This document shows positions 5,645 through 35,677 of a DNA stretch of 64,000 nucleotides, piece after piece (within the stretch, counting starts at the first letter, position 1; each line of letters opens with the position of its first letter). The position numbers and the translations under genes were made by a program. Source of the stretch: Aphanomyces cochlioides (taxonomy: Eukaryota > Oomycota > Saprolegniomycetes > Saprolegniales > Verrucalvaceae); assembly GCA_019828595.1 (NCBI GenBank), contig JAHQRK010000011.1, positions 1,550,001 to 1,614,000 of the forward strand. The letters are read 5' to 3'. The notes under the pieces are model-generated. The model saw nothing but the letters and a program-made list of their open reading frames with translations, had not been told where the DNA came from and made no database searches.

Positions 5645-8600
5645 TTAGATTGGAGTTTGACGACTTGGAGAAATACATCCCAAGCTGGGAAACACACATC
5701 CCCAAGTGTTCGCTTTCACTTGCTGACATCGACCATCTTCCGATGCCACACAATAAATTCCAGAGCAATTGCTTGCAGCTGAGTCACCTCGGCGAGGACA
5801 TTCCGTACCAAGTGGAAATAAACCAACACCAAAACATCCAAGACCACGCGAAATAGGAATGAAGTATGACGACTCCTTGCACACTTGAACCCATGTTCCA
5901 CTGATTCTTGATCCGCCATCTAAAGCCCATGCAGAAACATTGCATGGAGGTAATTCAGACTCATTTCGAAAAACAAATGTCGTGTCGAGTGGCATGGTGA
6001 TGGTGTTGTCGGTGGGAGATGGCGTTGTGGTGGACGGTGTGGTTTGGTTGTTGTCGGTGTAGTCGTCGACGGGGGATGGCGTGATGGAGACATTGGATGT
6101 GTTGGTCAATGGAGCGAGTGTGGTGACGTCTGGAGGTGTCGTGGTAGTGTGCGTCGTGGTAGTTGGTGTCGTGGTAGTTGGTGTCGTGGTGGTGTCAGCC
6201 GGAGACGACGTGGAGGGAGCTGTTGTGTCTGGTGGAGACGCCGTGGGTTTTGCTGTCGTGTCGAGTGGCATGGTGATGGTGTTGTCGGTGGGAGATGGCG
6301 TTGTGGTGGACGGTGTGGTTTGGTTGTTGTCGGTGTAGTCGTCGACGGGGGATGGCGTGATGGAGACATTGGATGTGTTGGTCAATGGAGCGAGTGTGGT
6401 GACGTCTGGAGGTGTCGTGGTAGTGTGCGTCGTGGTAGTTGGTGTCGTGGTAGTTGGTGTCGTGGTAGTTGGTGTCGTGGTAGTTGGCATCGTGGTGGTG
6501 TCAACCGGAGACGACGTGGAGGGAGCTGTTGTGTCTGGTGGAGACGCCGTGGGTGTTGCTGTCGTGTCGGGTGGCATGGTGATGGTGTTGTCGGTGGGAG
6601 ATGGCGTTGTGGTGGACGGTGTGGTTTGGTTGTTGTCGGTGTAGTCGTCGACGGGGGATGGCGTGATGGAGACATTGGATGTGTTGGTCAATGGAGCGAG
6701 TGGTGTGACGTCTGGAGGTGTCGTGGTAGTGTGCGTCGTAGTAGTTGGTGTGGTGGTAGTGTGCGTCGTGGTAGCTGGTGTCGTGGTAGTTGGCATCGTG
6801 GTGGTGTCAACCGGAGACGACGTGGAGGGAGCTGTTGTGTCTGGTGGAGACGCCGTGGGTGTTGCTGTCGTGTCGGGTGGCATGGTGATGGTGTTGTCGG
6901 TGGGAGATGGCGTTGTGGTGGACGGTGTGGTTTGGTTGTTGTCGGTGTAGTCGTCGACGGGGGATGGCGTGATGGAGACATTGGATGTGTTGGTCAATGG
7001 AGCGAGTGTGGTGACGTCTGGAGGTGTCGTGGTAGTGTGCGTCGTGGTAGTTGGTGTCGTGGTAGTTGGTGTCGTGGTAGTTGGTGTCGTGGTAGTTGGT
7101 GTCGTGGTAGTTGGTGTCGTGGTAGTTGGCATCGTGGTGGTGTCAACCGGAGACGACGTGGAGGGAGCTGTTGTGTCTGGTGGAGACGCCGTGGGTGTTG
7201 CTGTCGTGTCGGGTGGCATGGTGATGGTGTTGTCGGTGGGAGATGGCGTTGTGGTGGACGGTGTGGTTTGGTTGTTGTCGGTGTAGTCGTCGACGGGGGA
7301 TGGCGTGATGGAGACATTGGATGTGTTGGTCAATGGAGCGAGTGTGGTGACGTCTGGAGGTGTCGTGGTAGTGTGCGTCGTTGTAGTTGGTGTGGTGGTA
7401 GTGTGCGTCGTAGTAGCTGGTGTCGTGGTAGTTGGCATCGTGGTGGTGTCAACTGGAGACGACGTGGAGGGAGCTGTTGTGTCTGGTGGAGACGCCGTGG
7501 GTGTTGCTGTCGTGTCGGGTGGCATGGTGATGGTGTTGTCGGTGGGAGATGGCGTTGTGGTGGACGGTGTGGTTTGGTTGTTGTCGGTGTAGTCGTCGAC
7601 GGGGGATGGCGTGATGGAGACATTGGATGTGTTGGTCAATGGAGCGAGTGTGGTGACGTCTGGAGGTGTCGTGGTAGTGTGCGTCGTTGTAGTTGGTGTG
7701 GTGGTAGTGTGCGTCGTGGTAGCTGGTGTCGTGGTAGTTGGCATCGTGGTGGTGTCAACCGGAGACGACGTGGAGGGAGCTGTTGTGTCTGGTGGAGACG
7801 CCGTGGGTGTTGCTGTCGTGTCGGGTGGCATGGTGATGGTGTTGTCGGTGGGAGATGGCGTTGTGGTGGACGGTGTGGTTTGGTTGTTGTCGGTGTAGTC
7901 GTCGACGGGGGATGGCGTGATGGAGACATTGGATGTGTTGGTCAATGGAGCGAGTGTGGTGACGTCTGGAGGTGTCGTGGTAGTGTGCGTCGTGGTAGTT
8001 GGTGTCGTGGTAGTTGGTGTCGTGGTAGTTGGTGTCGTGGTAGTTGGTGTCGTGGTAGTTGGCATCGTGGTGGTGTCAACCGGAGACGACGTGGAGGGAG
8101 CTGTTGTGTCTGGTGGAGACGCCGTGGGTGTTGCTGTCGTGTCGGGTGGCATGGTGATGGTGTTGTCGGTGGGAGATGGCGTTGTGGTGGACGGTGTGGT
8201 TTGGTTGTTGTCGGTGTAGTCGTCGACGGGGGATGGCGTGATGGAGACATTGGATGTGTTGGTCAATGGAGCGAGTGTGGTGACGTCTGGAGGTGTCGTG
8301 GTAGTGTGCGTCGTGGTAGTTGGTGTGGTGGTAGTGTGCGTCGTAGTAGCTGGTGTCGTGGTAGTTGGCATCGTGGTGGTGTCAACTGGAGACGACGTGG
8401 AGGGAGCTGTTGTGTCTGGTGGAGACGCCGTGGGTGTTGCTGTCGTGTCGGGTGGCATGGTGATGGTGTTGTCGGTGGGAGATGGCGTTGTGGTGGACGG
8501 TGTGGTTTGGTTGTTGTCGGTGTAGTCGTCGACGGGGGATGGCGTGATGGAGACATTGGATGTGTTGGTCAATGGAGCGAGTGTGGTGACGTCTGGAGGT

Positions 8601-11600
8601 GTCGTGGTAGTGTGCGTCGTTGTAGTTGGTGTGGTGGTAGTGTGCGTCGTGGTAGCTGGTGTCGTGGTAGTTGGCATCGTGGTGGTGTCAACCGGAGACG
8701 ACGTGGAGGGAGCTGTTGTGTCTGGTGGAGACGCCGTGGGTGTTGCTGTCGTGTCGGGTGGCATGGTGATGGTGTTGTCGGTGGGAGATGGCGTTGTGGT
8801 GGACGGTGTGTTTTGGTTGTTGTCGGTGTAGTCGTCGACGGGGGATGGCGTGATGGAGACATTGGATGTGTTGGTCAATGGAGCGAGTGTGGTGACGTCT
8901 GGAGGTGTCGTGGTAGTGTGCGTCGTTGTAGTTGGTGTGGTGGTAGTGTGCGTCGTGGTAGCTGGTGTCGTGGTAGTTGGCATCGTGGTGGTGTCAACCG
9001 GAGACGACGTGGAGGGAGCTGTTGTGTCTGGTGGAGACGCCGTGGGTGTTGCTGTCGTGTCGGGTGGCATGGTGATGGTGTTGTCGGTGGGAGATGGCGT
9101 TGTGGTGGACGGTGTGGTTTGGTTGTTGTCGGTGTAGTCGTCGACGGGGGATGGCGTGATGGAGACATTGGATGTGTTGGTCAATGGAGCAAGTGTGGTG
9201 ACGTCTGGAGGTGTCGTGGTAGTGTGCGTCGTGGTAGTTGGTGTGGTGGTAGTTGGTGTCGTGGTAGTTGGTGTCGTGGTAGTTGGCATCGTGGTGGTGT
9301 CAACCGGAGACGACGTGGAGGGAGCTGTTGTGTCTGGTGGAGACGCCGTGGGTGTTGCTGTCGTGTCGGGTGGCATGGTGATGGTGTTGTCGGTGGGAGA
9401 TGGCGTTGTGGTGGACGGTGTGGTTTGGTTGTTGTCGGTGTAGTCGTCGACGGGGGATGGCGTGATGGAGACATTGGATGTGTTGGTCAATGGAGCGAGT
9501 GTGGTGACGTCTGGAGGTGTCGTGGTAGTGTGCGTCGTTGTAGTTGGTGTGGTGGTAGTTGGTGTCGTGGTAGTTGGTGTCGTGGTAGTTGGCATCGTGG
9601 TGGTGTCAACCGGAGACGACGTGGAGGGAGCTGTTGTGTCTGGTGGAGACGCCGTGGGTGTTGCTGTCGTGTCGGGTGGCATGGTGATGGTGTTGTCGGT
9701 GGGAGATGGCGTTGTGGTGGACGGTGTGGTTTGGTTGTTGTCGGTGTAGTCGTCGACGGGGGATGGCGTGATGGAGACATTGGATGTGTTGGTCAATGGA
9801 GCGAGTGTGGTGACGTCTGGAGGTGTCGTGGTAGTGTGCGTCGTGGCAGTTGGTGTCGTGGTAGTTGGCATCGTGGTGGTGTCAGCCGGAGACGACGTGG
9901 AGGGAGCTGTTGTGTCTGGTGGAGACGCCGTGGGTGTTGCTGTCGTGTCGGGTGGCATGGTGATGGTGTTGTCGGTGGGAGATGGCGTTGTGGTGGACGG
10001 TGTGGTTTGGTTGTTGTCGGTGTAGTCGTCGACGGGGGATGGCGTGATGGAGACATTGGATGTGTTGGTCAATGGAGCGAGTGTGGTGACGTCTGGAGGT
10101 GTCGTGGTAGTGTGCGTCGTTGTAGTTGGTGTGGTGGTAGTGTGCGTCGTGGTAGTTGGTGTCGTGGTAGTTGGCATCGTGGTGGTGTCAACCGGAGACG
10201 ACGTGGAGGGAGCTGTTGTGTCTGGTGGAGACGCCGTGGGTGTTGCTGTCGTGTCGGGTGGCATGGTGATGGTGTTGTCGGTGGGAGATGGCGTTGTGGT
10301 GGACGGTGTGGTTTGGTTGTTGTCGGTGTAGTCGTCGACGGGGGATGGCGTGATGGAGACATTGGATGTGTTGGTCAATGGAGCGAGTGTGGTGACGTCT
10401 GGAGGTGTCGTGGTAGTGTGCGTCGTGGTAGTTGGTGTGGTGGTAGTGTGCGTCGTGGTAGTTGGTGTCGTGGTAGTTGGCATCGTGGTGGTGTCAACCG
10501 GAGACGACGTGGAGGGAGCTGTTGTGTCTGGTGGAGACGCCGTGGGTGTTGCTGTCGTGTCGGGTGGCATGGTGATGGTGTTGTCGGTGGGAGATGGCGT
10601 TGTGGTGGACGGTGTGGTTTGGTTGTTGTCGGTGTAGTCGTCGACGGGGGATGGCGTGATGGAGACATTGGATGTGTTGGTCAATGGAGCGAGTGTGGTG
10701 ACGTCTGGAGGTGTCGTGGTAGTGTGCGTCGTGGTAGTTGGTGTCGTGGTAGTTGGCATCGTGGTGGTGTCAACCGGAGACGACGTGGAGGGAGCTGTTG
10801 TGTCTGGTGGAGACGCCGTGGGTGTTGCTGTCGTGTCGGGTGGCATGGTGATGGTGTTGTCGGTGGGAGATGGCGTTGTGGTGGACGGTGTGGTTTGGTT
10901 GTTGTCGGTGTAGTCGTCGACGGGGGATGGCGTGATGGAGACATTGGATGTGTTGGTCAATGGAGCGAGTGTGGTGACGTCTGGAGGTGTCGTGGTAGTG
11001 TGCGTCGTTGTAGTTGGTGTGGTGGTAGTGTGCGTCGTGGTAGTTGGTGTCGTGGTAGTTGGCATCGTGGTGGTGTCAACCGGAGACGACGTGGAGGGAG
11101 CTGTTGTGTCTGGTGGAGACGCCGTGGGTGTTGCTGTCGTGTCGGGTGGCATGGTGATGGTGTTGTCGGTGGGAGATGGCGTTGTGGTGGACGGTGTGGT
11201 TTGGTTGTTGTCGGTGTAGTCGTCGACGGGGGATGGCGTGATGGAGACATTGGATGTGTTGGTCAATGGAGCGAGTGTGGTGACGTCTGGAGGTGTCGTG
11301 GTAGTGTGCGTCGTTGTAGTTGGTGTGGTGGTAGTTGGTGTCGTGGTAGTTGGTGTCGTGGTAGTTGGCATCGTGGTGGTGTCAGCCGGAGACGACGTGG
11401 AGGGAGCTGTTGTGTCTGGTGGAGACGCCGTGGGTGTTGCTGTCGTGTCGGGTGGCATGGTGATGGTGTTGTCGGTGGGAGATGGCGTTGTGGTGGACGG
11501 TGTGGTTTGGTTGTTGTCGGTGTAGTCGTCGACGGGGGATGGCGTGATGGAGACATTGGATGTGTTGGTCAATGGAGCGAGTGTGGTGACGTCTGGAGGT

Positions 11601-14600
11601 GTCGTGGTAGTGTGCGTCGTGGCAGTTGGTGTCGTGGTAGTTGGCATCGTGGTGGTGTCAGCCGGAGACGACGTGGAGGGAGCTGTTGTGTCTGGTGGAG
11701 ACGCCGTGGGTGTTGCTGTCGTGTCGGGTGGCATGGTGATGGTGTTGTCGGTGGGAGATGGCGTTGTGGTGGACGGTGTGGTTTGGTTGTTGTCGGTGTA
11801 GTCGTCGACGGGGGATGGCGTGATGGAGACATTGGATGTGTTGGTCAATGGAGCGAGTGTGGTGACGTCTGGAGGTGTCGTGGTAGTGTGCGTCGTTGTA
11901 GTTGGTGTGGTGGTAGTGTGCGTCGTGGTAGCTGGTGTCGTGGTAGTTGGCATCGTGGTGGTGTCAACCGGAGACGACGTGGAGGGAGCTGTTGTGTCTG
12001 GTGGAGACGCCGTGGGTGTTGCTGTCGTGTCGGGTGGCATGGTGATGGTGTTGTCGGTGGGAGATGGCGTTGTGGTGGACGGTGTGGTTTGGTTGTTGTC
12101 GGTGTAGTCGTCGACGGGGGATGGCGTGATGGAGACATTGGATGTGTTGGTCAATGGAGCGAGTGTGGTGACGTCTGGAGGTGTCGTGGTAGTGTGCGTC
12201 GTGGCAGTTGGTGTCGTGGTAGTTGGCATCGTGGTGGTGTCAGCCGGAGACGACGTGGAGGGAGCTGTTGTGTCTGGTGGAGACGCCGTGGGTGTTGCTG
12301 TCGTGTCGGGTGGCATGGTGATGGTGTTGTCGGTGGGAGATGGCGTTGTGGTGGACGGTGTGGTTTGGTTGTTGTCGGTGTAGTCGTCGACGGGGGATGG
12401 CGTGATGGAGACATTGGATGTGTTGGTCAATGGAGCGAGTGTGGTGACGTCTGGAGGTGTCGTGGTAGTGTGCGTCGTTGTAGTTGGTGTGGTGGTAGTG
12501 TGCGTCGTGGTAGTTGGTGTCGTGGTAGTTGGCATCGTGGTGGTGTCAACCGGAGACGACGTGGAGGGAGCTGTTGTGTCTGGTGGAGACGCCGTGGGTG
12601 TTGCTGTCGTGTCGGGTGGCATGGTGATGGTGTTGTCGGTGGGAGATGGCGTTGTGGTGGACGGTGTGGTTTGGTTGTTGTCGGTGTAGTCGTCGACGGG
12701 GGATGGCGTGATGGAGACATTGGATGTGTTGGTCAATGGAGCGAGTGTGGTGACGTCTGGAGGTGTCGTGGTAGTGTGCGTCGTTGTAGTTGGTGTGGTG
12801 GTAGTTGGTGTCGTGGTAGTTGGTGTCGTGGTAGTTGGCATCGTGGTGGTGTCAGCCGGAGACGACGTGGAGGGAGCTGTTGTGTCTGGTGGAGACGCCG
12901 TGGGTGTTGCTGTCGTGTCGGGTGGCATGGTGATGGTGTTGTCGGTGGGAGATGGCGTTGTGGTGGACGGTGTGGTTTGGTTGTTGTCGGTGTAGTCGTC
13001 GACGGGGGATGGCGTGATGGAGACATTGGATGTGTTGGTCAATGGAGCGAGTGTGGTGACGTCTGGAGGTGTCGTGGTAGTGTGCGTCGTTGTAGTTGGT
13101 GTGGTGGTAGTTGGTGTCGTGGTAGTTGGTGTCGTGGTAGTTGGCATCGTGGTGGTGTCAGCCGGAGACGACGTGGAGGGAGCTGTTGTGTCTGGTGGAG
13201 ACGCCGTGGGTGTTGCTGTCGTGTCGGGTGGCATGGTGATGGTGTTGTCGGTGGGAGATGGCGTTGTGGTGGACGGTGTGGTTTGGTTGTTGTCGGTGTA
13301 GTCGTCGACGGGGGATGGCGTGATGGAGACATTGGATGTGTTGGTCAATGGAGCGAGTGTGGTGACGTCTGGAGGTGTCGTGGTAGTGTGCGTCGTTGTA
13401 GTTGGTGTGGTGGTAGTGTGCGTCGTGGTAGTTGGTGTCGTGGTAGTTGGCATCGTGGTGGTGTCAACCGGAGACGACGTGGAGGGAGCTGTTGTGTCTG
13501 GTGGAGACGCCGTGGGTGTTGCTGTCGTGTCGGGTGGCATGGTGATGGTGTTGTCGGTGGGAGATGGCGTTGTGGTGGACGGTGTGGTTTGGTTGTTGTC
13601 GGTGTAGTCGTCGACGGGGGATGGCGTGATGGAGACATTGGATGTGTTGGTCAATGGAGCGAGTGTGGTGACGTCTGGAGGTGTCGTGGTAGTGTGCGTC
13701 GTGGTAGTGTGCGTCGTGGTAGTGTGCGTCGTGGTAGTTGGTGTCGTGGTAGTTGGCATCGTGGTGGTGTCAACCGGAGACGACGTGGAGGGAGCTGTTG
13801 TGTCTGGTGGAGACGCCGTGGGTGTTGCTGTCGTGTCGGGTGGCATGGTGATGGTGTTGTCGGTGGGAGATGGCGTTGTGGTGGACGGTGTGGTTTGGTT
13901 GTTGTCGGTGTAGTCGTCGACGGGGGATGGCGTGATGGAGACATTGGATGTGTTGGTCAATGGAGCGAGTGTGGTGACGTCTGGAGGTGTCGTGGTAGTG
14001 TGCGTCGTTGTAGTTGGTGTGGTGGTAGTGTGCGTCGTGGTAGTTGGTGTCGTGGTAGTTGGCATCGTGGTGGTGTCAACCGGAGACGACGTGGAGGGAG
14101 CTGTTGTGTCTGGTGGAGACGCCGTGGGTGTTGCTGTCGTGTCGGGTGGCATGGTGATGGTGTTGTCGGTGGGAGATGGCGTTGTGGTGGACGGTGTGGT
14201 TTGGTTGTTGTCGGTGTAGTCGTCGACGGGGGATGGCGTGATGGAGACATTGGATGTGTTGGTCAATGGAGCGAGTGTGGTGACGTCTGGAGGTGTCGTG
14301 GTAGTGTGCGTCGTTGTAGTTGGTGTGGTGGTAGTGTGCGTCGTGGTAGCTGGTGTCGTGGTAGTTGGCATCGTGGTGGTGTCAACCGGAGACGACGTGG
14401 AGGGAGCTGTTGTGTCTGGTGGAGACGCCGTGGGTGTTGCTGTCGTGTCGGGTGGCATGGTGATGGTGTTGTCGGTGGGAGATGGCGTTGTGGTGGACGG
14501 TGTGGTTTGGTTGTTGTCGGTGTAGTCGTCGACGGGGGATGGCGTGATGGAGACATTGGATGTGTTGGTCAATGGAGCGAGTGTGGTGACGTCTGGAGGT

Positions 14601-29600: not shown

Positions 29601-32600
29601 TTGGATGTGTTGGTCAATGGAGCGAGTGTGGTGACGTCTGGAGGTGTCGTGGTAGTGTGCGTCGTTGTAGTTGGTGTGGTGGTAGTGTGCGTCGTGGTAG
29701 TTGGTGTCGTGGTAGTTGGCATCGTGGTGGTGTCAACCGGAGACGACGTGGAGGGAGCTGTTGTGTCTGGTGGAGACGCCGTGGGTGTTGCTGTCGTGTC
29801 GGGTGGCATGGTGATGGTGTTGTCGGTGGGAGATGGCGTTGTGGTGGACGGTGTGGTTTGGTTGTTGTCGGTGTAGTCGTCGACGGGGGATGGCGTGATG
29901 GAGACATTGGATGTGTTGGTCAATGGAGCGAGTGTGGTGACGTCTGGAGGTGTCGTGGTAGTGTGCGTCGTTGTAGTTGGTGTGGTGGTAGTTGGTGTCG
30001 TGGTAGTTGGCATCGTGGTGGTGTCAACCGGAGACGACGTGGAGGGAGCTGTTGTGTCTGGTGGAGACGCCGTGGGTGTTGCTGTCGTGTCGGGTGCCAT
30101 GGTGATGGTGTTGTCGGTGGGAGATGGCGTTGTGGTGGACGGTGTGGTTTGGTTGTTGTCGGTGTAGTCGTCGACGGGGGATGGCGTGATGGAGACATTG
30201 GATGTGTTGGTCAATGGAGCGAGTGTGGTGACGTCTGGAGGTGTCGTGGTAGTGTGCGTCGTGGTAGTGTGCGTCGTGGTAGTGTGCGTCGTGGTAGTTG
30301 GTGTCGTGGTAGTTGGCATCGTGGTGGTGTCAACCGGAGACGACGTGGAGGGAGCTGTTGTGTCTGGTGGAGACGCCGTGGGTGTTGCTGTCGTGTCGGG
30401 TGGCATGGTGATGGTGTTGTCGGTGGGAGATGGCGTTGTGGTGGACGGTGTGGTTTGGTTGTTGTCGGTGTAGTCGTCGACGGGGGATGGCGTGATGGAG
30501 ACATTGGATGTGTTGGTCAATGGAGCGAGTGTGGTGACGTCTGGAGGTGTCGTGGTAGTGTGCGTCGTAGTAGTTGGTGTGGTGGTAGTGTGCGTCGTGG
30601 TAGCTGGTGTCGTGGTAGTTGGCATCGTGGTGGTGTCAACCGGAGACGACGTGGAGGGAGCTGTTGTGTCTGGTGGAGACGCCGTGGGTGTTGCTGTCGT
30701 GTCGGGTGGCATGGTGATGGTGTTGTCGGTGGGAGATGGCGTTGTGGTGGACGGTGTGGTTTGGTTGTTGTCGGTGTAGTCGTCGACGGGGGATGGCGTG
30801 ATGGAGACATTGGATGTGTTGGTCAATGGAGCGAGTGTGGTGACGTCTGGAGGTGTCGTGGTAGTGTGCGTCGTAGTAGTTGGTGTGGTGGTAGTGTGCG
30901 TCGTGGTAGCTGGTGTCGTGGTAGTTGGCATCGTGGTGGTGTCAACCGGAGACGACGTGGAGGGAGCTGTTGTGTCTGGTGGAGACGCCGTGGGTGTTGC
31001 TGTCGTGTCGGGTGGCATGGTGATGGTGTTGTCGGTGGGAGATGGCGTTGTGGTGGACGGTGTGGTTTGGTTGTTGTCGGTGTAGTCGTCGACGGGGGAT
31101 GGCGTGATGGAGACATTGGATGTGTTGGTCAATGGAGCGAGTGTGGTGACGTCTGGAGGTGTCGTGGTAGTGTGCGTCGTAGTAGTTGGTGTGGTGGTAG
31201 TGTGCGTCGTGGTAGCTGGTGTCGTGGTAGTTGGCATCGTGGTGGTGTCAACCGGAGACGACGTGGAGGGAGCTGTTGTGTCTGGTGGAGACGCCGTGGG
31301 TGTTGCTGTCGTGTCGGGTGGCATGGTGATGGTGTTGTCGGTGGGAGATGGCGTTGTGGTGGACGGTGTGGTTTGGTTGTTGTCGGTGTAGTCGTCGACG
31401 GGGGATGGCGTGATGGAGACATTGGATGTGTTGGTCAATGGAGCGAGTGTGGTGACGTCTGGAGGTGTCGTGGTAGTGTGCGTCGTTGTAGTTGGTGTGG
31501 TGGTAGTGTGCGTCGTGGTAGTTGGTGTCGTGGTAGTTGGCATCGTGGTGGTGTCAACCGGAGACGACGTGGAGGGAGCTGTTGTGTCTGGTGGAGACGC
31601 CGTGGGTGTTGCTGTCGTGTCGGGTGGCATGGTGATGGTGTTGTCGGTGGGAGATGGCGTTGTGGTGGACGGTGTGGTTTGGTTGTTGTCGGTGTAGTCG
31701 TCGACGGGGGATGGCGTGATGGAGACATTGGATGTGTTGGTCAATGGAGCGAGTGTGGTGACGTCTGGAGGTGTCGTGGTAGTGTGCGTCGTAGTAGTTG
31801 GTGTGGTGGTAGTGTGCGTCGTGGTAGCTGGTGTCGTGGTAGTTGGCATCGTGGTGGTGTCAACCGGAGACGACGTGGAGGGAGCTGTTGTGTCTGGTGG
31901 AGACGCCGTGGGTGTTGCTGTCGTGTCGGGTGGCATGGTGATGGTGTTGTCGGTGGGAGATGGCGTTGTGGTGGACGGTGTGGTTTGGTTGTTGTCGGTG
32001 TAGTCGTCGACGGGGGATGGCGTGATGGAGACATTGGATGTGTTGGTCAATGGAGCGAGTGTGGTGACGTCTGGAGGTGTCGTGGTAGTGTGCGTCGTAG
32101 TAGTTGGTGTGGTGGTAGTGTGCGTCGTGGTAGCTGGTGTCGTGGTAGTTGGCATCGTGGTGGTGTCAACCGGAGACGACGTGGAGGGAGCTGTTGTGTC
32201 TGGTGGAGACGCCGTGGGTGTTGCTGTCGTGTCGGGTGGCATGGTGATGGTGTTGTCGGTGGGAGATGGCGTTGTGGTGGACGGTGTGGTTTGGTTGTTG
32301 TCGGTGTAGTCGTCGACGGGGGATGGCGTGATGGAGACATTGGATGTGTTGGTCAATGGAGCGAGTGTGGTGACGTCTGGAGGTGTCGTGGTAGTGTGCG
32401 TCGTTGTAGTTGGTGTGGTGGTAGTGTGCGTCGTGGTAGTTGGTGTCGTGGTAGTTGGCATCGTGGTGGTGTCAACCGGAGACGACGTGGAGGGAGCTGT
32501 TGTGTCTGGTGGAGACGCCGTGGGTGTTGCTGTCGTGTCGGGTGGCATGGTGATGGTGTTGTCGGTGGGAGATGGCGTTGTGGTGGACGGTGTGGTTTGG

Positions 32601-35600
32601 TTGTTGTCGGTGTAGTCGTCGACGGGGGATGGCGTGATGGAGACATTGGATGTGTTGGTCAATGGAGCGAGTGTGGTGACGTCTGGAGGTGTCGTGGTAG
32701 TGTGCGTCGTAATAGTTGGTGTGGTGGTAGTGTGCGTCGTGGTAGCTGGTGTCGTGGTAGTTGGCATCGTGGTGGTGTCAACCGGAGACGACGTGGAGGG
32801 AGCTGTTGTGTCTGGTGGAGACGCCGTGGGTGTTGCTGTCGTGTCGGGTGGCATGGTGATGGTGTTGTCGGTGGGAGATGGCGTTGTGGTGGACGGTGTG
32901 GTTTGGTTGTTGTCGGTGTAGTCGTCGACGGGGGATGGCGTGATGGAGACATTGGATGTGTTGGTCAATGGAGCGAGTGTGGTGACGTCTGGAGGTGTCG
33001 TGGTAGTGTGCGTCGTAGTAGTTGGTGTGGTGGTAGTGTGCGTCGTGGTAGCTGGTGTCGTGGTAGTTGGCATCGTGGTGGTGTCAACCGGAGACGACGT
33101 GGAGGGAGCTGTTGTGTCTGGTGGAGACGCCGTGGGTGTTGCTGTCGTGTCGGGTGGCATGGTGATGGTGTTGTCGGTGGGAGATGGCGTTGTGGTGGAC
33201 GGTGTGGTTTGGTTGTTGTCGGTGTAGTCGTCGACGGGGGATGGCGTGATGGAGACATTGGATGTGTTGGTCAATGGAGCGAGTGTGGTGACGTCTGGAG
33301 GTGTCGTGGTAGTGTGCGTCGTGGTAGTGTGCGTCGTGGTAGTGTGCGTCGTGGTAGTTGGTGTCGTGGTAGTTGGCATCGTGGTGGTGTCAACCGGAGA
33401 CGACGTGGAGGGAGCTGTTGTGTCTGGTGGAGACGCCGTGGGTGTTGCTGTCGTGTCGGGTGGCATGGTGATGGTGTTGTCGGTGGGAGATGGCGTTGTG
33501 GTGGACGGTGTGGTTTGGTTGTTGTCGGTGTAGTCGTCGACGGGGGATGGCGTGATGGAGACATTGGATGTGTTGGTCAATGGAGCGAGTGTGGTGACGT
33601 CTGGAGGTGTCGTGGTAGTGTGCGTCGTTGTAGTTGGTGTGGTGGTAGTGTGCGTCGTGGTAGTTGGTGTCGTGGTAGTTGGCATCGTGGTGGTGTCAAC
33701 CGGAGACGACGTGGAGGGAGCTGTTGTGTCTGGTGGAGACGCCGTGGGTGTTGCTGTCGTGTCGGGTGGCATGGTGATGGTGTTGTCGGTGGGAGATGGC
33801 GTTGTGGTGGACGGTGTGGTTTGGTTGTTGTCGGTGTAGTCGTCGACGGGGGATGGCGTGATGGAGACATTGGATGTGTTGGTCAATGGAGCGAGTGTGG
33901 TGACGTCTGGAGGTGTCGTGGTAGTGTGCGTCGTGGTAGTGTGCGTCGTGGTAGTTGGTGTCGTGGTGGTGTCAGCCGGAGACGACGTGGAGGGAGCTGT
34001 TGTGTCTGGTGGAGACGCCGTGGGTGTTGCTGTCGTGTCGGGTGGCATGGTGATGGTGTTGTCGGTGGGAGATGGCGTTGTGGTGGACGGTGTGGTTTGG
34101 TTGTTGTCGGTGTAGTCGTCGACGGGGGATGGCGTGATGGAGACATTGGATGTGTTGGTCAATGGAGCGAGTGTGGTGACGTCTGGAGGTGTCGTGGTAG
34201 TGTGCGTCGTGGTAGTTGGTGTCGTGGTGGTGTCAGCCGGAGACGACGTGGAGGGAGCTGTTGTGTCTGGTGGAGACGCCGTGGGTGTTGCTGTCGTGTC
34301 GGGTGGCATGGTGATGGTGTTGTCGGTGGGAGATGGCGTTGTGGTGGACGGTGTGGTTTGGTTGTTGTCGGTGTAGTCGTCGACGGGGGATGGCGTGATG
34401 GAGACATTGGATGTGTTGGTCAATGGAGCGAGTGTGGTGACGTCTGGAGGTGTCGTGGTAGTGTGCGTCGTTGTAGTTGGTGTGGTGGTAGTGTGCGTCG
34501 TGGTAGCTGGTGTCGTGGTAGCTGGTGTCGTGGTAGTTGGCATCGTGGTGGTGTCAACCGGAGACGACGTGGAGGGAGCTGTTGTGTCTGGTGGAGACGC
34601 CGTGGGTGTTGCTGTCGTGTCGGGTGGCATGGTGATGGTGTTGTCGGTGGGAGATGGCGTTGTGGTGGACGGTGTGGTTTGGTTGTTGTCGGTGTAGTCG
34701 TCGACGGGGGATGGCGTGATGGAGACATTGGATGTGTTGGTCAATGGAGCGAGTGTGGTGACGTCTGGAGGTGTCGTGGTAGTGTGCGTCGTTGTAGTTG
34801 GTGTGGTGGTAGTGTGCGTCGTGGTAGTTGGTGTCGTGGTAGTTGGCATCGTGGTGGTGTCAACCGGAGACGACGTGGAGGGAGCTGTTGTGTCTGGTGG
34901 AGACGCCGTGGGTGTTGCTGTCGTGTCGGGTGGCATGGTGATGGTGTTGTCGGTGGGAGATGGCGTTGTGGTGGACGGTGTGGTTTGGTTGTTGTCGGTG
35001 TAGTCGTCGACGGGGGATGGCGTGATGGAGACATTGGATGTGTTGGTCAATGGAGTGAGTGTGGTGACGTCTGGAGGTGTCGTGGTAGTGTGCGTCGTGG
35101 TAGTTGGTGTCGTGGTAGTTGGTGTCGTGGTAGTTGGCATCGTGGTGGTGTCAGCCGGAGACGACGTGGAGGGAGCTGTTGTGTCTGGTGGAGACGCCGT
35201 GGGTGTTGCTGTCGTGTCGGGTGGCATGGTGATGGTGTTGTCGGTGGGAGATGGCGTTGTGGTGGACGGTGTGGTTTGGTTTGTGATCCATGTTATAGTC
35301 GAATTACTTGCTGCTGTTGCTGTTGTTTTTGGCACTGATATTGTGCTGGGTAGTGGGGCCCATGTAGGAAGTTTTGTTTCGTTGGTATAATTTGTGTACT
35401 GGGGTTCCATGGTTGTATCATGTGGGAGGAGGGGTCCAAACGTAGGTGCTTGGCTTGAAGTCACTGTTGTATTTATCGCTATGGCTCCAAATGGATCTGG
35501 AGAATCATTCGTTGAGTTAAATTCAATCGTAGGTGGAGATGAACGCGAGGGATTTGAAGAACTTTGTGGTTGTTGAAGAGTTGATACAACGACTGTTGTT

Positions 35601-35677
35601 ACCACCGCTACGAACGCTCCTGCTCCTGCTTTTTGCTTGTTGGAGCCTAGCAGGTCGAGGTTTGAGAAGAAGCTCAT
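5645..35677 (-). CDS. Giant Thr/Pro-rich mucin-like type II membrane protein, about 10,010 residues
   Basis: One uninterrupted minus-strand frame of 10,011 codons. The start is the first in-frame ATG (35677, MSFFSNLDLLGSNKQK); the frame is open further upstream but without an ATG. Residues 17-34 (AGAGAFVAVVTTVVVSTL) form the only hydrophobic segment. With Lys before it and no clear cleavage site, a type II signal anchor is likely, placing the rest outside the cell or in the lumen. About 100 unique Ser/Thr/Asn-rich residues follow. The frame then runs through about 98 copies of a unit of roughly 102 residues, built from TPSTTTPSPTDN, DTTATPTASPPDTT and five-residue PTTTT/HTTTT blocks, with NTSNVS sequons. 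Such composition is typical of heavily O-glycosylated mucin stalks. The last about 110 residues form a separate domain with nine Cys. A surface coat or adhesin role is inference. No family was recognised for the Cys domain. Copy number depends on assembly accuracy. Confidence 0.85.
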   Translation of the reverse strand: MSFFSNLDLLGSNKQKAGAGAFVAVVTTVVVSTLQQPQSSSNPSRSSPPTIEFNSTNDSPDPFGAIAINTTVTSSQAPTFGPLLPHDTTMEPQYTNYTNETKLPTWAPLPSTISVPKTTATAASNSTITWITNQTTPSTTTPSPTDNTITMPPDTTATPTASPPDTTAPSTSSPADTTTMPTTTTPTTTTPTTTTHTTTTPPDVTTLTPLTNTSNVSITPSPVDDYTDNNQTTPSTTTPSPTDNTITMPPDTTATPTASPPDTTAPSTSSPVDTTTMPTTTTPTTTTHTTTTPTTTTHTTTTPPDVTTLAPLTNTSNVSITPSPVDDYTDNNQTTPSTTTPSPTDNTITMPPDTTATPTASPPDTTAPSTSSPVDTTTMPTTTTPATTTPATTTHTTTTPTTTTHTTTTPPDVTTLAPLTNTSNVSITPSPVDDYTDNNQTTPSTTTPSPTDNTITMPPDTTATPTASPPDTTAPSTSSPADTTTTPTTTTHTTTTPPDVTTLAPLTNTSNVSITPSPVDDYTDNNQTTPSTTTPSPTDNTITMPPDTTATPTASPPDTTAPSTSSPADTTTTPTTTTHTTTTHTTTTPPDVTTLAPLTNTSNVSITPSPVDDYTDNNQTTPSTTTPSPTDNTITMPPDTTATPTASPPDTTAPSTSSPVDTTTMPTTTTPTTTTHTTTTPTTTTHTTTTPPDVTTLAPLTNTSNVSITPSPVDDYTDNNQTTPSTTTPSPTDNTITMPPDTTATPTASPPDTTAPSTSSPVDTTTMPTTTTPTTTTHTTTTHTTTTHTTTTPPDVTTLAPLTNTSNVSITPSPVDDYTDNNQTTPSTTTPSPTDNTITMPPDTTATPTASPPDTTAPSTSSPVDTTTMPTTTTPATTTHTTTTPTTTTHTTTTPPDVTTLAPLTNTSNVSITPSPVDDYTDNNQTTPSTTTPSPTDNTITMPPDTTATPTASPPDTTAPSTSSPVDTTTMPTTTTPATTTHTTTTPTITTHTTTTPPDVTTLAPLTNTSNVSITPSPVDDYTDNNQTTPSTTTPSPTDNTITMPPDTTATPTASPPDTTAPSTSSPVDTTTMPTTTTPTTTTHTTTTPTTTTHTTTTPPDVTTLAPLTNTSNVSITPSPVDDYTDNNQTTPSTTTPSPTDNTITMPPDTTATPTASPPDTTAPSTSSPVDTTTMPTTTTPATTTHTTTTPTTTTHTTTTPPDVTTLAPLTNTSNVSITPSPVDDYTDNNQTTPSTTTPSPTDNTITMPPDTTATPTASPPDTTAPSTSSPVDTTTMPTTTTPATTTHTTTTPTTTTHTTTTPPDVTTLAPLTNTSNVSITPSPVDDYTDNNQTTPSTTTPSPTDNTITMPPDTTATPTASPPDTTAPSTSSPVDTTTMPTTTTPTTTTHTTTTPTTTTHTTTTPPDVTTLAPLTNTSNVSITPSPVDDYTDNNQTTPSTTTPSPTDNTITMPPDTTATPTASPPDTTAPSTSSPVDTTTMPTTTTPATTTHTTTTPTTTTHTTTTPPDVTTLAPLTNTSNVSITPSPVDDYTDNNQTTPSTTTPSPTDNTITMPPDTTATPTASPPDTTAPSTSSPVDTTTMPTTTTPATTTHTTTTPTTTTHTTTTPPDVTTLAPLTNTSNVSITPSPVDDYTDNNQTTPSTTTPSPTDNTITMPPDTTATPTASPPDTTAPSTSSPVDTTTMPTTTTPATTTHTTTTPTTTTHTTTTPPDVTTLAPLTNTSNVSITPSPVDDYTDNNQTTPSTTTPSPTDNTITMPPDTTATPTASPPDTTAPSTSSPVDTTTMPTTTTPTTTTHTTTTHTTTTHTTTTPPDVTTLAPLTNTSNVSITPSPVDDYTDNNQTTPSTTTPSPTDNTITMAPDTTATPTASPPDTTAPSTSSPVDTTTMPTTTTPTTTTPTTTTHTTTTPPDVTTLAPLTNTSNVSITPSPVDDYTDNNQTTPSTTTPSPTDNTITMPPDTTATPTASPPDTTAPSTSSPVDTTTMPTTTTPTTTTHTTTTPTTTTHTTTTPPDVTTLAPLTNTSNVSITPSPVDDYTDNNQTTPSTTTPSPTDNTITMPPDTTATPTASPPDTTAPSTSSPVDTTTMPTTTTPTTTTHTTTTPTTTTHTTTTPPDVTTLAPLTNTSNVSITPSPVDDYTDNNQTTPSTTTPSPTDNTITMPPDTTATPTASPPDTTAPSTSSPVDTTTMPTTTTPTTTTHTTTTPTTTTHTTTTPPDVTTLAPLTNTSNVSITPSPVDDYTDNNQTTPSTTTPSPTDNTITMPPDTTATPTASPPDTTAPSTSSPVDTTTMPTTTTPTTTTHTTTTPTTTTHTTTTPPDVTTLAPLTNTSNVSITPSPVDDYTDNNQTTPSTTTPSPTDNTITMPPDTTETPTASPPDTTAPSTSSPADTTTTPTTTTHTTTTHTTTTHTTTTPPDVTTLAPLTNTSNVSITPSPVDDYTDNNQTTPSTTTPSPTDNTITMPPDTTATPTASPPDTTAPSTSSPVDTTTMPTTTTPTTTTHTTTTHTTTTHTTTTPPDVTTLAPLTNTSNVSITPSPVDDYTDNNQTTPSTTTPSPTDNTITMPPDTTATPTASPPDTTAPSTSSPADTTTMPTTTTPTTTTHTTTTHTTTTHTTTTPPDVTTLAPLTNTSNVSITPSPVDDYTDNNQTTPSTTTPSPTDNTITMPPDTTATPTASPPDTTAPSTSSPVDTTTMPTTTTPTTTTHTTTTHTTTTHTTTTPPDVTTLAPLTNTSNVSITPSPVDDYTDNNQTTPSTTTPSPTDNTITMPPDTTATPTASPPDTTAPSTSSPVDTTTMPTTTTPTTTTHTTTTPTTTTHTTTTPPDVTTLAPLTNTSNVSITPSPVDDYTDNNQTTPSTTTPSPTDNTITMPPDTTATPTASPPDTTAPSTSSPVDTTTMPTTTTPATTTHTTTTPTTTTHTTTTPPDVTTLAPLTNTSNVSITPSPVDDYTDNNQTTPSTTTPSPTDNTITMPPDTTATPTASPPDTTAPSTSSPVDTTTMPTTTTPTTTTHTTTTHTTTTHTTTTPPDVTTLAPLTNTSNVSITPSPVDDYTDNNQTTPSTTTPSPTDNTITMPPDTTETPTASPPDTTAPSTSSPADTTTTPTTTTHTTTTHTTTTHTTTTPPDVTTLAPLTNTSNVSITPSPVDDYTDNNQTTPSTTTPSPTDNTITMPPDTTATPTASPPDTTAPSTSSPVDTTTMPTTTTPTTTTHTTTTHTTTTHTTTTPPDVTTLAPLTNTSNVSITPSPVDDYTDNNQTTPSTTTPSPTDNTITMPPDTTATPTASPPDTTAPSTSSPADTTTMPTTTTPATTTHTTTTPTTTTHTTTTPPDVTTLAPLTNTSNVSITPSPVDDYTDNNQTTPSTTTPSPTDNTITMPPDTTATPTASPPDTTAPSTSSPVDTTTMPTTTTPATTTHTTTTPTTTTHTTTTPPDVTTLAPLTNTSNVSITPSPVDDYTDNNQTTPSTTTPSPTDNTITMPPDTTATPTASPPDTTAPSTSSPVDTTTMPTTTTPTTTTHTTTTHTTTTPPDVTTLAPLTNTSNVSITPSPVDDYTDNNQTTPSTTTPSPTDNTITMPPDTTATPTASPPDTTAPSTSSPVDTTTMPTTTTPATTTHTTTTPTTTTHTTTTPPDVTTLAPLTNTSNVSITPSPVDDYTDNNQTTPSTTTPSPTDNTITMPPDTTATPTASPPDTTAPSTSSPVDTTTMPTTTTPATTTHTTTTPTTTTHTTTTPPDVTTLAPLTNTSNVSITPSPVDDYTDNNQTTPSTTTPSPTDNTITMPPDTTATPTASPPDTTAPSTSSPVDTTTMPTTTTPTTTTHTTTTPTTTTHTTTTPPDVTTLAPLTNTSNVSITPSPVDDYTDNNQTTPSTTTPSPTDNTITMPPDTTATPTASPPDTTAPSTSSPVDTTTMPTTTTPATTTHTTTTPTTTTHTTTTPPDVTTLAPLTNTSNVSITPSPVDDYTDNNQTTPSTTTPSPTDNTITMPPDTTATPTASPPDTTAPSTSSPVDTTTMPTTTTPTTTTHTTTTPTTTTHTTTTPPDVTTLAPLTNTSNVSITPSPVDDYTDNNQTTPSTTTPSPTDNTITMPPDTTATPTASPPDTTAPSTSSPVDTTTMPTTTTPTTTTHTTTTPTTTTHTTTTPPDVTTLAPLTNTSNVSITPSPVDDYTDNNQTTPSTTTPSPTDNTITMPPDTTATPTASPPDTTAPSTSSPVDTTTMPTTTTPTTTTHTTTTPTTTTHTTTTPPDVTTLAPLTNTSNVSITPSPVDDYTDNNQTTPSTTTPSPTDNTITMPPDTTATPTASPPDTTAPSTSSPADTTTMPTTTTHTTTTHTTTTPPDVTTLAPLTNTSNVSITPSPVDDYTDNNQTTPSTTTPSPTDNTITMPPDTTATPTASPPDTTAPSTSSPVDTTTMPTTTTPTTTTHTTTTHTTTTHTTTTPPDVTTLAPLTNTSNVSITPSPVDDYTDNNQTTPSTTTPSPTDNTITMPPDTTATPTASPPDTTAPSTSSPVDTTTMPTTTTPTTTTPTTTTPTTTTHTTTTPPDVTTLAPLTNTSNVSITPSPVDDYTDNNQTTPSTTTPSPTDNTITMPPDTTATPTASPPDTTAPSTSSPADTTTMPTTTTHTRTTHTTTTPPDVTTLAPLTNTSNVSITPSPVDDYTDNNQTTPSTTTPSPTDNTITMPPDTTATPTASPPDTTAPSTSSPVDTTTMPTTTTPTTTTHTTTTHTTTTHTTTTPPDVTTLAPLTNTSNVSITPSPVDDYTDNNQTTPSTTTPSPTDNTITMPPDTTATPTASPPDTTAPSTSSPVDTTTMPTTTTPTTTTHTTTTPTTTTHTTTTPPDVTTLAPLTNTSNVSITPSPVDDYTDNNQTTPSTTTPSPTDNTITMPPDTTATPTASPPDTTAPSTSSPVDTTTMPTTTTPATTTHTTTTPTTTTHTTTTPPDVTTLAPLTNTSNVSITPSPVDDYTDNNQTTPSTTTPSPTDNTITMPPDTTATPTASPPDTTAPSTSSPADTTTMPTTTTPTTTTHTTTTPTTTTHTTTTPPDVTTLAPLTNTSNVSITPSPVDDYTDNNQTTPSTTTPSPTDNTITMPPDTTATPTASPPDTTAPSTSSPADTTTMPTTTTPTTTTHTTTTPPDVTTLAPLTNTSNVSITPSPVDDYTDNNQTTPSTTTPSPTDNTITMPPDTTATPTASPPDTTAPSTSSPVDTTTMPTTTTPTTTTHTTTTHTTTTHTTTTPPDVTPLAPLTNTSNVSITPSPVDDYTDNNQTTPSTTTPSPTDNTITMPPDTTETPTASPPDTTAPSTSSPADTTTMPTTTTPTTTTHTTTTPPDVTTLAPLTNTSNVSITPTASPPDTTAPSTSSPVDTTTTPATTTPTTTTPTTTTHTTTTPPDVTTLAPLTNTSNVSITPSPVDDYTDNNQTTPSTTTPSPTDNTITMPPDTTATPTASPPDTTAPSTSSPVDTTTMPTTTTPTTTTHTTTTPPDVTTLAPLTNTSNVSITPSPVDDYTDNNQTTPSTTTPSPTDNTITMPPDTTATPTASPPDTTAPSTSSPADTTTTPTTTTPATTTHTTTTPTTTTHTTTTPPDVTTLAPLTNTSNVSITPSPVDDYTDNNQTTPSTTTPSPTDNTITMPPDTTATPTASPPDTTAPSTSSPVDTTTMPTTTTPTTTTHTTTTPPDVTTLAPLTNTSNVSITPSPVDDYTDNNQTTPSTTTPSPTDNTITMPPDTTATPTASPPDTTAPSTSSPADTTTTPTTTTPATTTHTTTTPTTTTHTTTTPPDVTTLAPLTNTSNVSITPSPVDDYTDNNQTTPSTTTPSPTDNTITMPPDTTATPTASPPDTTAPSTSSPADTTTMPTTTTPTATTHTTTTPPDVTTLAPLTNTSNVSITPSPVDDYTDNNQTTPSTTTPSPTDNTITMPPDTTATPTASPPDTTAPSTSSPVDTTTMPTTTTPATTTHTTTTPTTTTHTTTTPPDVTTLAPLTNTSNVSITPSPVDDYTDNNQTTPSTTTPSPTDNTITMPPDTTETPTASPPDTTAPSTSSPVDTTTMPTTTTPTTTTHTTTTPPDVTTLAPLTNTSNVSITPTASPPDTTAPSTSSPVDTTTTPATTTPTTTTPTTTMHTTTTPPDVTTLAPLTNTSNVSITPSPVDDYTDNNQTTPSTTTPSPTDNTITMPPDTTATPTASPPDTTAPSTSSPVDTTTMPTTTTPTTTTPTTTTPTTTTHTTTTPPDVTTLAPLTNTSNVSITPSPVDDYTDNNQTTPSTTTPSPTDNTITMPPDTTATPTASPPDTTAPSTSSPVDTTTMPTTTTPTTTTHTTTTPTTTTHTTTTPPDVTTLAPLTNTSNVSITPSPVDDYTDNNQTTPSTTTPSPTDNTITMPPDTTATPTASPPDTTAPSTSSPVDTTTMPTTTTPTTTTHTTTTPPDVTTLAPLTNTSNVSITPSPVDDYTDNNQTTPSTTTPSPTDNTITMPPDTTATPTASPPDTTAPSTSSPVDTTTMPTTTTPTTTTHTTTTPTTTTHTTTTPPDVTTLAPLTNTSNVSITPSPVDDYTDNNQTTPSTTTPSPTDNTITMPPDTTATPTASPPDTTAPSTSSPVDTTTMPTTTTPATTTHTTTTPTTTTHTTTTPPDVTTLAPLTNTSNVSITPSPVDDYTDNNQTTPSTTTPSPTDNTITMPPDTTATPTASPPDTTAPSTSSPVDTTTMPTTTTPATTTHTTTTPTTTTHTTTTPPDVTTLAPLTNTSNVSITPSPVDDYTDNNQTTPSTTTPSPTDNTITMPPDTTATPTASPPDTTAPSTSSPVDTTTMPTTTTPATTTHTTTTPTTTTHTTTTPPDVTTLAPLTNTSNVSITPSPVDDYTDNNQTTPSTTTPSPTDNTITMPPDTTATPTASPPDTTAPSTSSPVDTTTMPTTTTPATTTHTTTTPTTTTHTTTTPPDVTTLAPLTNTSNVSITPSPVDDYTDNNQTTPSTTTPSPTDNTITMPPDTTATPTASPPDTTAPSTSSPVDTTTMPTTTTPATTTHTTTTPTTTTHTTTTPPDVTTLAPLTNTSNVSITPSPVDDYTDNNQTTPSTTTPSPTDNTITMPPDTTATPTASPPDTTAPSTSSPVDTTTMPTTTTPATTTHTTTTPTTTTHTTTTPPDVTTLAPLTNTSNVSITPSPVDDYTDNNQTTPSTTTPSPTDNTITMPPDTTATPTASPPDTTAPSTSSPVDTTTMPTTTTPTTTTHTTTTPTTTTHTTTTPPDVTTLAPLTNTSNVSITPSPVDDYTDNNQTTPSTTTPSPTDNTITMPPDTTATPTASPPDTTAPSTSSPVDTTTMPTTTTPTTTTHTTTTHTTTTHTTTTPPDVTTLAPLTNTSNVSITPSPVDDYTDNNQTTPSTTTPSPTDNTITMPPDTTATPTASPPDTTAPSTSSPVDTTTMPTTTTPTTTTHTTTTPTTTTHTTTTPPDVTTLAPLTNTSNVSITPSPVDDYTDNNQTTPSTTTPSPTDNTITMPPDTTATPTASPPDTTAPSTSSPADTTTMPTTTTPTTTTPTTTTPTTTTHTTTTPPDVTTLAPLTNTSNVSITPSPVDDYTDNNQTTPSTTTPSPTDNTITMPPDTTATPTASPPDTTAPSTSSPADTTTMPTTTTPTTTTPTTTTPTTTTHTTTTPPDVTTLAPLTNTSNVSITPSPVDDYTDNNQTTPSTTTPSPTDNTITMPPDTTATPTASPPDTTAPSTSSPVDTTTMPTTTTPTTTTHTTTTPTTTTHTTTTPPDVTTLAPLTNTSNVSITPSPVDDYTDNNQTTPSTTTPSPTDNTITMPPDTTATPTASPPDTTAPSTSSPADTTTMPTTTTPTATTHTTTTPPDVTTLAPLTNTSNVSITPSPVDDYTDNNQTTPSTTTPSPTDNTITMPPDTTATPTASPPDTTAPSTSSPVDTTTMPTTTTPATTTHTTTTPTTTTHTTTTPPDVTTLAPLTNTSNVSITPSPVDDYTDNNQTTPSTTTPSPTDNTITMPPDTTATPTASPPDTTAPSTSSPADTTTMPTTTTPTATTHTTTTPPDVTTLAPLTNTSNVSITPSPVDDYTDNNQTTPSTTTPSPTDNTITMPPDTTATPTASPPDTTAPSTSSPADTTTMPTTTTPTTTTPTTTTPTTTTHTTTTPPDVTTLAPLTNTSNVSITPSPVDDYTDNNQTTPSTTTPSPTDNTITMPPDTTATPTASPPDTTAPSTSSPVDTTTMPTTTTPTTTTHTTTTPTTTTHTTTTPPDVTTLAPLTNTSNVSITPSPVDDYTDNNQTTPSTTTPSPTDNTITMPPDTTATPTASPPDTTAPSTSSPVDTTTMPTTTTPTTTTHTTTTPPDVTTLAPLTNTSNVSITPSPVDDYTDNNQTTPSTTTPSPTDNTITMPPDTTATPTASPPDTTAPSTSSPVDTTTMPTTTTPTTTTHTTTTPTTTTHTTTTPPDVTTLAPLTNTSNVSITPSPVDDYTDNNQTTPSTTTPSPTDNTITMPPDTTATPTASPPDTTAPSTSSPVDTTTMPTTTTPTTTTHTTTTPTTTTHTTTTPPDVTTLAPLTNTSNVSITPSPVDDYTDNNQTTPSTTTPSPTDNTITMPPDTTATPTASPPDTTAPSTSSPADTTTMPTTTTPTATTHTTTTPPDVTTLAPLTNTSNVSITPSPVDDYTDNNQTTPSTTTPSPTDNTITMPPDTTATPTASPPDTTAPSTSSPVDTTTMPTTTTPTTTTPTTTTPTTTTHTTTTPPDVTTLAPLTNTSNVSITPSPVDDYTDNNQTTPSTTTPSPTDNTITMPPDTTATPTASPPDTTAPSTSSPVDTTTMPTTTTPTTTTPTTTTPTTTTHTTTTPPDVTTLAPLTNTSNVSITPSPVDDYTDNNQTTPSTTTPSPTDNTITMPPDTTATPTASPPDTTAPSTSSPVDTTTMPTTTTPATTTHTTTTPTTTTHTTTTPPDVTTLAPLTNTSNVSITPSPVDDYTDNNQNTPSTTTPSPTDNTITMPPDTTATPTASPPDTTAPSTSSPVDTTTMPTTTTPATTTHTTTTPTTTTHTTTTPPDVTTLAPLTNTSNVSITPSPVDDYTDNNQTTPSTTTPSPTDNTITMPPDTTATPTASPPDTTAPSTSSPVDTTTMPTTTTPATTTHTTTTPTTTTHTTTTPPDVTTLAPLTNTSNVSITPSPVDDYTDNNQTTPSTTTPSPTDNTITMPPDTTATPTASPPDTTAPSTSSPVDTTTMPTTTTPTTTTPTTTTPTTTTPTTTTHTTTTPPDVTTLAPLTNTSNVSITPSPVDDYTDNNQTTPSTTTPSPTDNTITMPPDTTATPTASPPDTTAPSTSSPVDTTTMPTTTTPATTTHTTTTPTTTTHTTTTPPDVTTLAPLTNTSNVSITPSPVDDYTDNNQTTPSTTTPSPTDNTITMPPDTTATPTASPPDTTAPSTSSPVDTTTMPTTTTPATTTHTTTTPTTTTHTTTTPPDVTTLAPLTNTSNVSITPSPVDDYTDNNQTTPSTTTPSPTDNTITMPPDTTATPTASPPDTTAPSTSSPVDTTTMPTTTTPTTTTPTTTTPTTTTPTTTTPTTTTHTTTTPPDVTTLAPLTNTSNVSITPSPVDDYTDNNQTTPSTTTPSPTDNTITMPPDTTATPTASPPDTTAPSTSSPVDTTTMPTTTTPATTTHTTTTPTTTTHTTTTPPDVTPLAPLTNTSNVSITPSPVDDYTDNNQTTPSTTTPSPTDNTITMPPDTTATPTASPPDTTAPSTSSPVDTTTMPTTTTPTTTTPTTTTPTTTTHTTTTPPDVTTLAPLTNTSNVSITPSPVDDYTDNNQTTPSTTTPSPTDNTITMPLDTTAKPTASPPDTTAPSTSSPADTTTTPTTTTPTTTTHTTTTPPDVTTLAPLTNTSNVSITPSPVDDYTDNNQTTPSTTTPSPTDNTITMPLDTTFVFRNESELPPCNVSAWALDGGSRISGTWVQVCKESSYFIPISRGLGCFGVGLFPLGTECPRRGDSAASNCSGIYCVASEDGRCQQVKANTWGCVFPSLGCISPSRQTPI
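17268..17726 (-). repeat. Composite 459-bp repeat unit, copy 1
   Basis: This unit is 459 bp instead of about 306 bp and contains two copies of the GATGGAGACATTGG landmark. In the protein the segment from SPVDDYTDNN to PDTTAT is missing at the internal joint, giving NVSITPTASPPDTT. This is what an unequal crossover between two out-of-register units would leave. The same joint occurs again at 19473-19931. Confidence 0.85.
18309..19472 (-). repeat. Exact-looking tandem duplication of a 582-bp two-unit block
   Basis: Units of 306 + 276 bp at 18309-18890 are repeated at 18891-19472. Both copies carry the rare variant GACGCTGTGGG, where every other unit I read has GACGCCGTGGG. The shared rare base marks the pair as a recent block duplication rather than independent units. 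A similar but distinct 306 + 276 block precedes them at 17727-18308. Confidence 0.75.
19473..19931 (-). repeat. Composite 459-bp repeat unit, copy 2
   Basis: Second 459-bp unit with the same internal joint (NVSITPTASPPDTT) as the one at 17268-17726, 2205 bp away. Sharing one aberrant junction implies that a block including it was copied after the junction formed. Both copies are followed on the sense strand by units of the same class. A few bases differ between them, for example GTGCATCG in the first against GTGCGTCG in the second. Confidence 0.85.

Follow-up and report, generated by a model that had tools for sequence, protein, structure and literature searches.

A 30-kb stop-free frame in Aphanomyces cochlioides is probably a gene for a giant CAR-type mucin

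The minus strand of a 64,000-nucleotide stretch of the Aphanomyces cochlioides genome (GCA_019828595.1, contig JAHQRK010000011.1, positions 1,550,001 to 1,614,000; hereafter the window) carries one uninterrupted frame of about 30 kb. We read this locus, with a probability of roughly 0.6, as a coding gene for a giant CAR-type mucin that would join a polyanionic, presumably glycosylated stalk to a putative attachment domain. Coding is the best reading because both unique ends of the frame share the frame of the repeat array between them, and because the C-terminal head is a conserved domain.

Results

Anatomy of the open frame

Analysis of the open reading frames in the window placed a single stop-free frame of 10,010 codons at minus-strand positions 5645-35677, with its first ATG at 35677. 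An earlier sequence-only reading, which had described an unbroken sense frame of 30 kb and about 10,000 residues, was correct on this point, as no internal stop was found. The features, in window positions, are listed below.

5645..35677, minus strand: predicted coding sequence, a candidate single exon; first ATG at 35677, stop at 5645-5647; 10,010 aa, about 1,023 kDa before glycosylation
35282..35677, minus strand: N-terminal unique part, residues 1-132 (own-genome search)
35573..35629, minus strand: hydrophobic segment, residues 17-35, by Kyte-Doolittle only; signal peptide or type II signal anchor
5978..35281, minus strand: repeat array (stalk), rich in Thr, Pro, Ser and Asp; about 97 units, mostly of 102 codons
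5648..5977, minus strand: C-terminal head, residues 9901-10010, with all 9 cysteines (own-genome matches, composition)
5681..5899, minus strand: conserved domain within the head, residues 9927-9999 (match to profile A1, 69.5 bits)
6044..35338, plus strand: antisense frame, stop-free over 9764 aa, in which Gly, Arg, Val, Cys and Trp abound; regarded as a mechanical result of the repeat and not as a gene

In a search of the own genome, the N-terminal part (residues 1-132) matched nothing except itself. Within it, residues 17-35 are preceded by two lysines and reach a borderline hydrophobicity of 1.67 (Kyte-Doolittle, 19 residues), and no cleavage site after them is obvious by eye. The proposed N-terminal hydrophobic anchor is present as a segment, and Kyte-Doolittle values fit an anchor and a signal peptide alike. 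The best 12-residue hydrophobic score is 2.5, against 1.8-2.7 in three members of the head-domain family, whose N-terminal stretches read by eye as probable ordinary signal peptides. A splicing script that considered introns between about 45 and 700 bases, a permissive donor pattern and a pyrimidine-rich acceptor left 17 upstream start/donor/acceptor combinations in frame, none of which yields a clearly better N-terminus by eye. When the head and the first 130 residues were scanned with Pfam, no family was found at E<=1 in either part.

Several other genes are recognizable in the window. Two divergent GH5 cellulase-like genes lie at 49078-50496 (minus) and 53047-54203 (plus), the second of which continues in another frame and so contains an intron or a frame break. 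By eye from the translation, 47223-48793 (plus) encodes a serine-carboxypeptidase-like protein in two overlapping frames, and 62927-63922 (plus) holds transposase-like frames of DDE/pogo-like type. A protein of 1,260 aa, in which eight or more EF-hand stretches are present, is encoded at 39663-43445 (minus), and an ankyrin-repeat protein of 683 aa at 54381-56432 (minus).

A regular array encodes a polyanionic stalk

The array contains 97 unit starts, that is, 96 start-to-start stretches and a last partial one. Querying the own genome with one unit returned 100 matches, whole and partial, every one of them inside the giant frame, in agreement with the 98 or so repeats counted before. Most stretches are 306 bases long (72 of 96); the others measure 276 (13), 291 (five), 321 (two), 459 (two), 261 (one) and 336 bases (one). 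All 96 lengths are divisible by three, and the stretches comprise 42 distinct DNA sequences, with units differing in their number of TTTTP/TTTTH pentads. This regularity is not due to chance. Mean differences between the 72 units that measure 306 bases are 3.4-4.3 at any distance, and the longest recurring run of mixed unit types is three units. Since unit similarity is about equal at all distances, the array is either young or homogenised.

The encoded stalk of 9,768 residues is mucin-like, as had been claimed, with 42.2% Thr, 17.7% Pro and 9.0% Ser (69% together) and a further 7.9% Asp. It holds 780 acidic (D+E) and only 2 basic (K+R) residues along with 292 N-glycosylation sequons; each unit thus carries about three sequons, eight acidic residues and almost no basic ones. 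Three long stalks encoded on contig C12 have 0-2 acidic residues each, unlike the very acidic stalk of the giant. From its composition, the stalk would suit calcium-dependent packing and swelling. Extended mucins measure 0.20-0.25 nm per residue, and these general values give the stalk an estimated length of 2.0-2.4 micrometres.

Openness of the array is a weak sign of selection

It had been argued that a frame kept open despite so many repeats must be under selection, and this argument fails. Over the constant 228 bases of the 96 units we counted 12 types of point variant. Eight alter an amino acid (8.4 expected in the absence of selection) and four are silent (3.5 expected); all five singleton variants change the protein. 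Inter-repeat variation shows no visible purifying selection. Only 0.1 stops would be expected among the observed variant types without selection; across the array, 0.56% of single-base changes create a stop in the sense frame, and the figure for the antisense frame, likewise stop-free, is 4.9%. When the unit was subjected to dinucleotide shuffling 4,000 times, 72% of the shuffled versions left one or more of the sense strand's three frames free of stops. The array owes its openness to a single unit of 102 codons, present about 97 times over. Given near-identical units, an expectation of 0.1 stops and an antisense frame that is open as well, this openness is a weak sign of selection, and the variant counts, the shuffles and the open antisense rule out the unbroken frame as proof. 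The antisense frame was itself rejected as a gene on composition, since its 955 Trp and 1,198 Cys are not protein-like.

A second very large mucin-like locus of about 15 kb was observed at G000:C12:3125500-3140727. It has two heads near each array end, and its array of about 13.3 kb shows repeat spacings of 135 and then 387-453 bases, two of them out of frame.

In this sister array, 52 spacings were measured and two of them, of 137 and 449 bases, are not divisible by three, whereas the giant has zero frame-changing spacings in about 29.2 kb. At the sister rate, the probability of zero in the giant is about 0.013, or 0.07 when two intact C12 stalks (1,678 and 1,292 residues) are pooled; these values take input lengths of 13.4 and 22.4 kb and concern a sister locus that was noticed, not blindly chosen. 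The lower rate of frame breaks in the giant is suggestive only. The two breaks in the sister array may be either real or assembly errors; as the array stands out of frame in the assembly, genes of the giant's kind can be broken.

The head belongs to a large domain family

All nine cysteines of the giant are confined to residues 9912-10001, in agreement with the Cys-rich domain proposed at the far C-terminus. At E<=1e-3 the own genome holds 12 further places that match the head (best 5.2e-10, 47% identity), which rules out an orphan domain. With the domain of one paralogue as the query 78 places were found, and 45 with that of another; the union of the three genome searches is 81 domain places, the giant included, of which 78 lie within the window or the retrieved stretches; the other three, two of them on C2 and the third on C23, lie outside. 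Running profile A1 over the open reading frames of the retrieved stretches and the giant gave 58 ORF rows and 81 domain rows, both slightly high because one ORF is split at a stretch border and one is listed twice. The giant's head scores 69.5 bits against this profile, of whose 14 rows it is itself one, and eight positions are invariant across those rows (C23, G27, C35, P36, C46, C51, C59 and C69). In the tree of the 49 distinct domains, it belongs to a clade of eight with support of 0.97 (0.44 for the closest inner grouping), together with domains from genes on C12, C4 and C13. An extra cysteine pair occurs in six of the 49 domains, all within this clade: the giant's and five of the other seven. 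No CBM1 motif was seen in the retrieved parts of the clade-mates' genes.

Elsewhere in the family, the domain keeps varied company. It co-occurs with the cellulose-binding module CBM1 in some proteins; at C1:3729-3773 kb, a tandem cluster of 19 gene positions spaced 2.1-2.8 kb apart combines one to three head domains with CBM1, Pfam having been run on one gene of the cluster. In the genes scanned, Pfam marked two to three CBM1 stretches, and the N-terminal CBM1 of the C1 gene was recognised by eye. At G000:C1:1276653-1278875, an alkaline phosphatase (PF00245, 3.6e-68) is followed by a T/P-rich linker and a C-terminal head domain. The domain follows PT-type repeats at C20:572910 and also at C14:1376397-1378952, where a hydrophobic segment and a charged tail come after it; read by eye, the C14 protein is a putative membrane-anchored form. 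At C12:520726 and C12:528343 the domain adjoins long stalks of 1,292-1,678 residues, which the giant's repeat unit does not match and which are T/P-rich too. Across the relatives P/T/S-rich runs span 97-1,678 residues, and the domain is not always terminal. In one paralogue, a weak AtDEF-like Pfam match (14.6 bits, cut-off 25) overlaps the domain.

Protein-database searches, in which only proteins similar in length to the query were candidates, gave nothing at E<=0.01 for the head alone (1 candidate) or for a 1,000-residue C-terminal piece (14 candidates). The C-terminal 110 residues thus have relatives at 12 other places in the own genome and none at this threshold among those database candidates. 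With the domain of a paralogue, 3 of 19 candidates were related at 63-65% identity, one from Achlya and two from Saprolegnia, two of the three being named 'secreted protein'; these relatives point to an oomycete source, within the Saprolegniales. The Achlya protein (P0001) and one of the two Saprolegnia proteins (P0003) consist of an elicitin-like region, a linker and the head domain, their elicitin-like regions scoring 17.8 and 18.5 bits in Pfam, under the cut-off of 25. The family profile had zero matches to PDB sequences up to E 10. Predicted models of the giant's head (mean pLDDT 39.5) and of P0003 (50.3 overall, about 30-56 per ten-residue block over the head domain) are unreliable for the domain and too poor for fold searching.

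Comparison with known surface proteins

PMC2248709 describes more than 150 ESTs of A. euteiches, in 32 unigenes, as one family with CBM1 and a central cyst-germination-like domain. One fully sequenced member has CBM1 at both ends, and its centre resembles a mucin-like protein of a nematode as well as the cyst-germination (CAR) proteins of P. infestans (PMC2248709). In that paper, the family of Ae_10AL7886 and Ae_39AL5321 combines a signal peptide with a CBM1-flanked central domain, an arrangement alike in the C1/C21 genes here. Unlike this family, the giant is without CBM1 in its head and N-terminal part and has one domain, which ends a stalk of 9,768 residues. Because the C1/C21 genes share the CBM1 layout of A. 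euteiches, we take the giant's head as a putative CAR-type domain, an assignment that goes by layout and by the statement in PMC2248709. The former view of a head outside any described family is not supported: no Pfam model covers it, but it has 81 genome places, and a CBM1-bearing family of like layout is reported from A. euteiches in that same paper.

According to PMC3091767 and PMC2248709, P. infestans Car/CAR90 has a mucin-like region and a conserved Cys region, as the giant does, and is reported at the cell surface. The Cys region is N-terminal in CAR, by the text of PMC2248709, and C-terminal in the giant. Of the CAR-type features, the giant thus has the mucin-like Thr/Ser/Pro tandem-repeat region, while a CAR domain N-terminal to the repeats is absent; with its domain C-terminal to them, we call it 'CAR-type' and not 'a Car protein'. 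PPMUCL1/2/3 of the P. parasitica biofilm are likewise described as oomycete mucin-like surface proteins.

PMC3532174 presents CBEL of P. parasitica (CBM1 plus PAN/Apple) as a non-catalytic wall protein made of attachment modules. Neither CBEL-type CBM1 nor PAN/Apple was found by Pfam in the giant's head or first 130 residues. S. parasitica and A. euteiches reportedly have no CBEL (PMC3681718 and PMC2248709), and by analogy the head family may fill its role there. It is further reported that P. cinnamomi cysts are coated with glycoproteins larger than 330 kDa (PMC7355776), and that groups of non-catalytic CBM-bearing proteins in A. euteiches are zoospore-regulated or infection-induced (PMC5907361), the latter comparison concerning CBM1 proteins, not the giant. 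Among the literature matches listed, none has a title that refers to a giant mucin from the Saprolegniales.

Animal mucins such as MUC5B and MUC16 also have very long T/S/P repeats, encoded in large exons with variable copy number; the likeness to the giant lies in the long T/S/P repeats, and no homology is claimed. Animal gel-forming mucins end in domains such as VWD and CTCK, and Pfam gave no match to such terminal domains in the giant's head or N-terminus.

Discussion

Four other explanations were weighed against a coding CAR-type mucin. The foremost, which we consider rather unlikely, is a runaway minisatellite: a shorter CAR-type mucin would have gained repeats by unequal recombination, its extreme length being functionless and strain-variable. 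Such a history agrees with the 72 units of 306 bases that are near-identical at any distance (3.4-4.3 differences), with the purifying selection that is not visible among repeats, and with relatives whose P/T/S-rich runs stop at 97-1,678 residues. Yet family stalks unmatched by the giant's unit are still T/P-rich, so that stalk chemistry at least seems selected, and the giant has no frame-changing spacings against two in the sister array, a difference that is suggestive only.

It is improbable that the protein is a type II membrane tether, the model of the earlier reading, with its hydrophobic segment lodged permanently in the plasma membrane and its head an adhesin tip micrometres away. The two lysines before residues 17-35, the lack of an obvious cleavage site by eye, and a head at the end opposite to the hydrophobic segment would all fit. 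Against this, the N-terminal stretches of three family members score 1.8-2.7, so the giant's segment (2.5) is not special, and the domain is sometimes non-terminal in the family.

A non-coding satellite or dead gene, open by chance as its unit length is a multiple of three, is very improbable. The conserved domain encoded by the 3' flank, and the fact that both unique flanks stand in the same frame, argue against it, as do a unit found nowhere else in the genome and an antisense composition (955 Trp, 1,198 Cys) that is not protein-like; in its favour are the 72% of shuffled units with one or more open frames out of three, the open antisense, the near lack of observed mutations capable of creating a stop, and the out-of-frame sister array. 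Although near-identical repeats over 29 kb are difficult to assemble and another array in the assembly has frame breaks that are possibly errors, an array length expanded or collapsed by assembly is hardly credible, with 42 distinct unit sequences and a longest recurring mixed-type run of three units where artificial duplication would leave longer ones.

As a coding CAR-type mucin, the giant would be routed into the secretory pathway by its N-terminal hydrophobic segment. O- and N-glycosylation would turn the stalk into a stiff, hydrated and negatively charged rod of about 2 micrometres, and the head would be an attachment module that holds on to wall or glycan and has no catalytic role. The protein would then belong to the adhesive coat or mucilage that surrounds cysts, hyphae or germ tubes. 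Unequal recombination would expand and contract the array, so stalk length is likely polymorphic.

The frame is very large for an oomycete, and short-read assemblies are expected to collapse such arrays. Its head occurs at 81 places in one genome and is without a Pfam model at the curated cut-off in the scanned proteins; its partners (CBM1, alkaline phosphatase, an elicitin-like region and mucin stalks) point to an attachment module. More tentatively, and as a doubtful extension of the main reading, the head could be an unmodelled wall- or glycan-binding module of Saprolegniales that replaces the PAN/Apple of Phytophthora CBEL, with the giant as a single-molecule, micrometre-long, polyanionic tether from wall to host or mucilage whose reach is set by repeat number. 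A binding assay of the head would be inexpensive to run in this group, which reportedly has no CBEL. The giant itself looks like an extreme member of an already known kind of oomycete surface protein, not a new kind.
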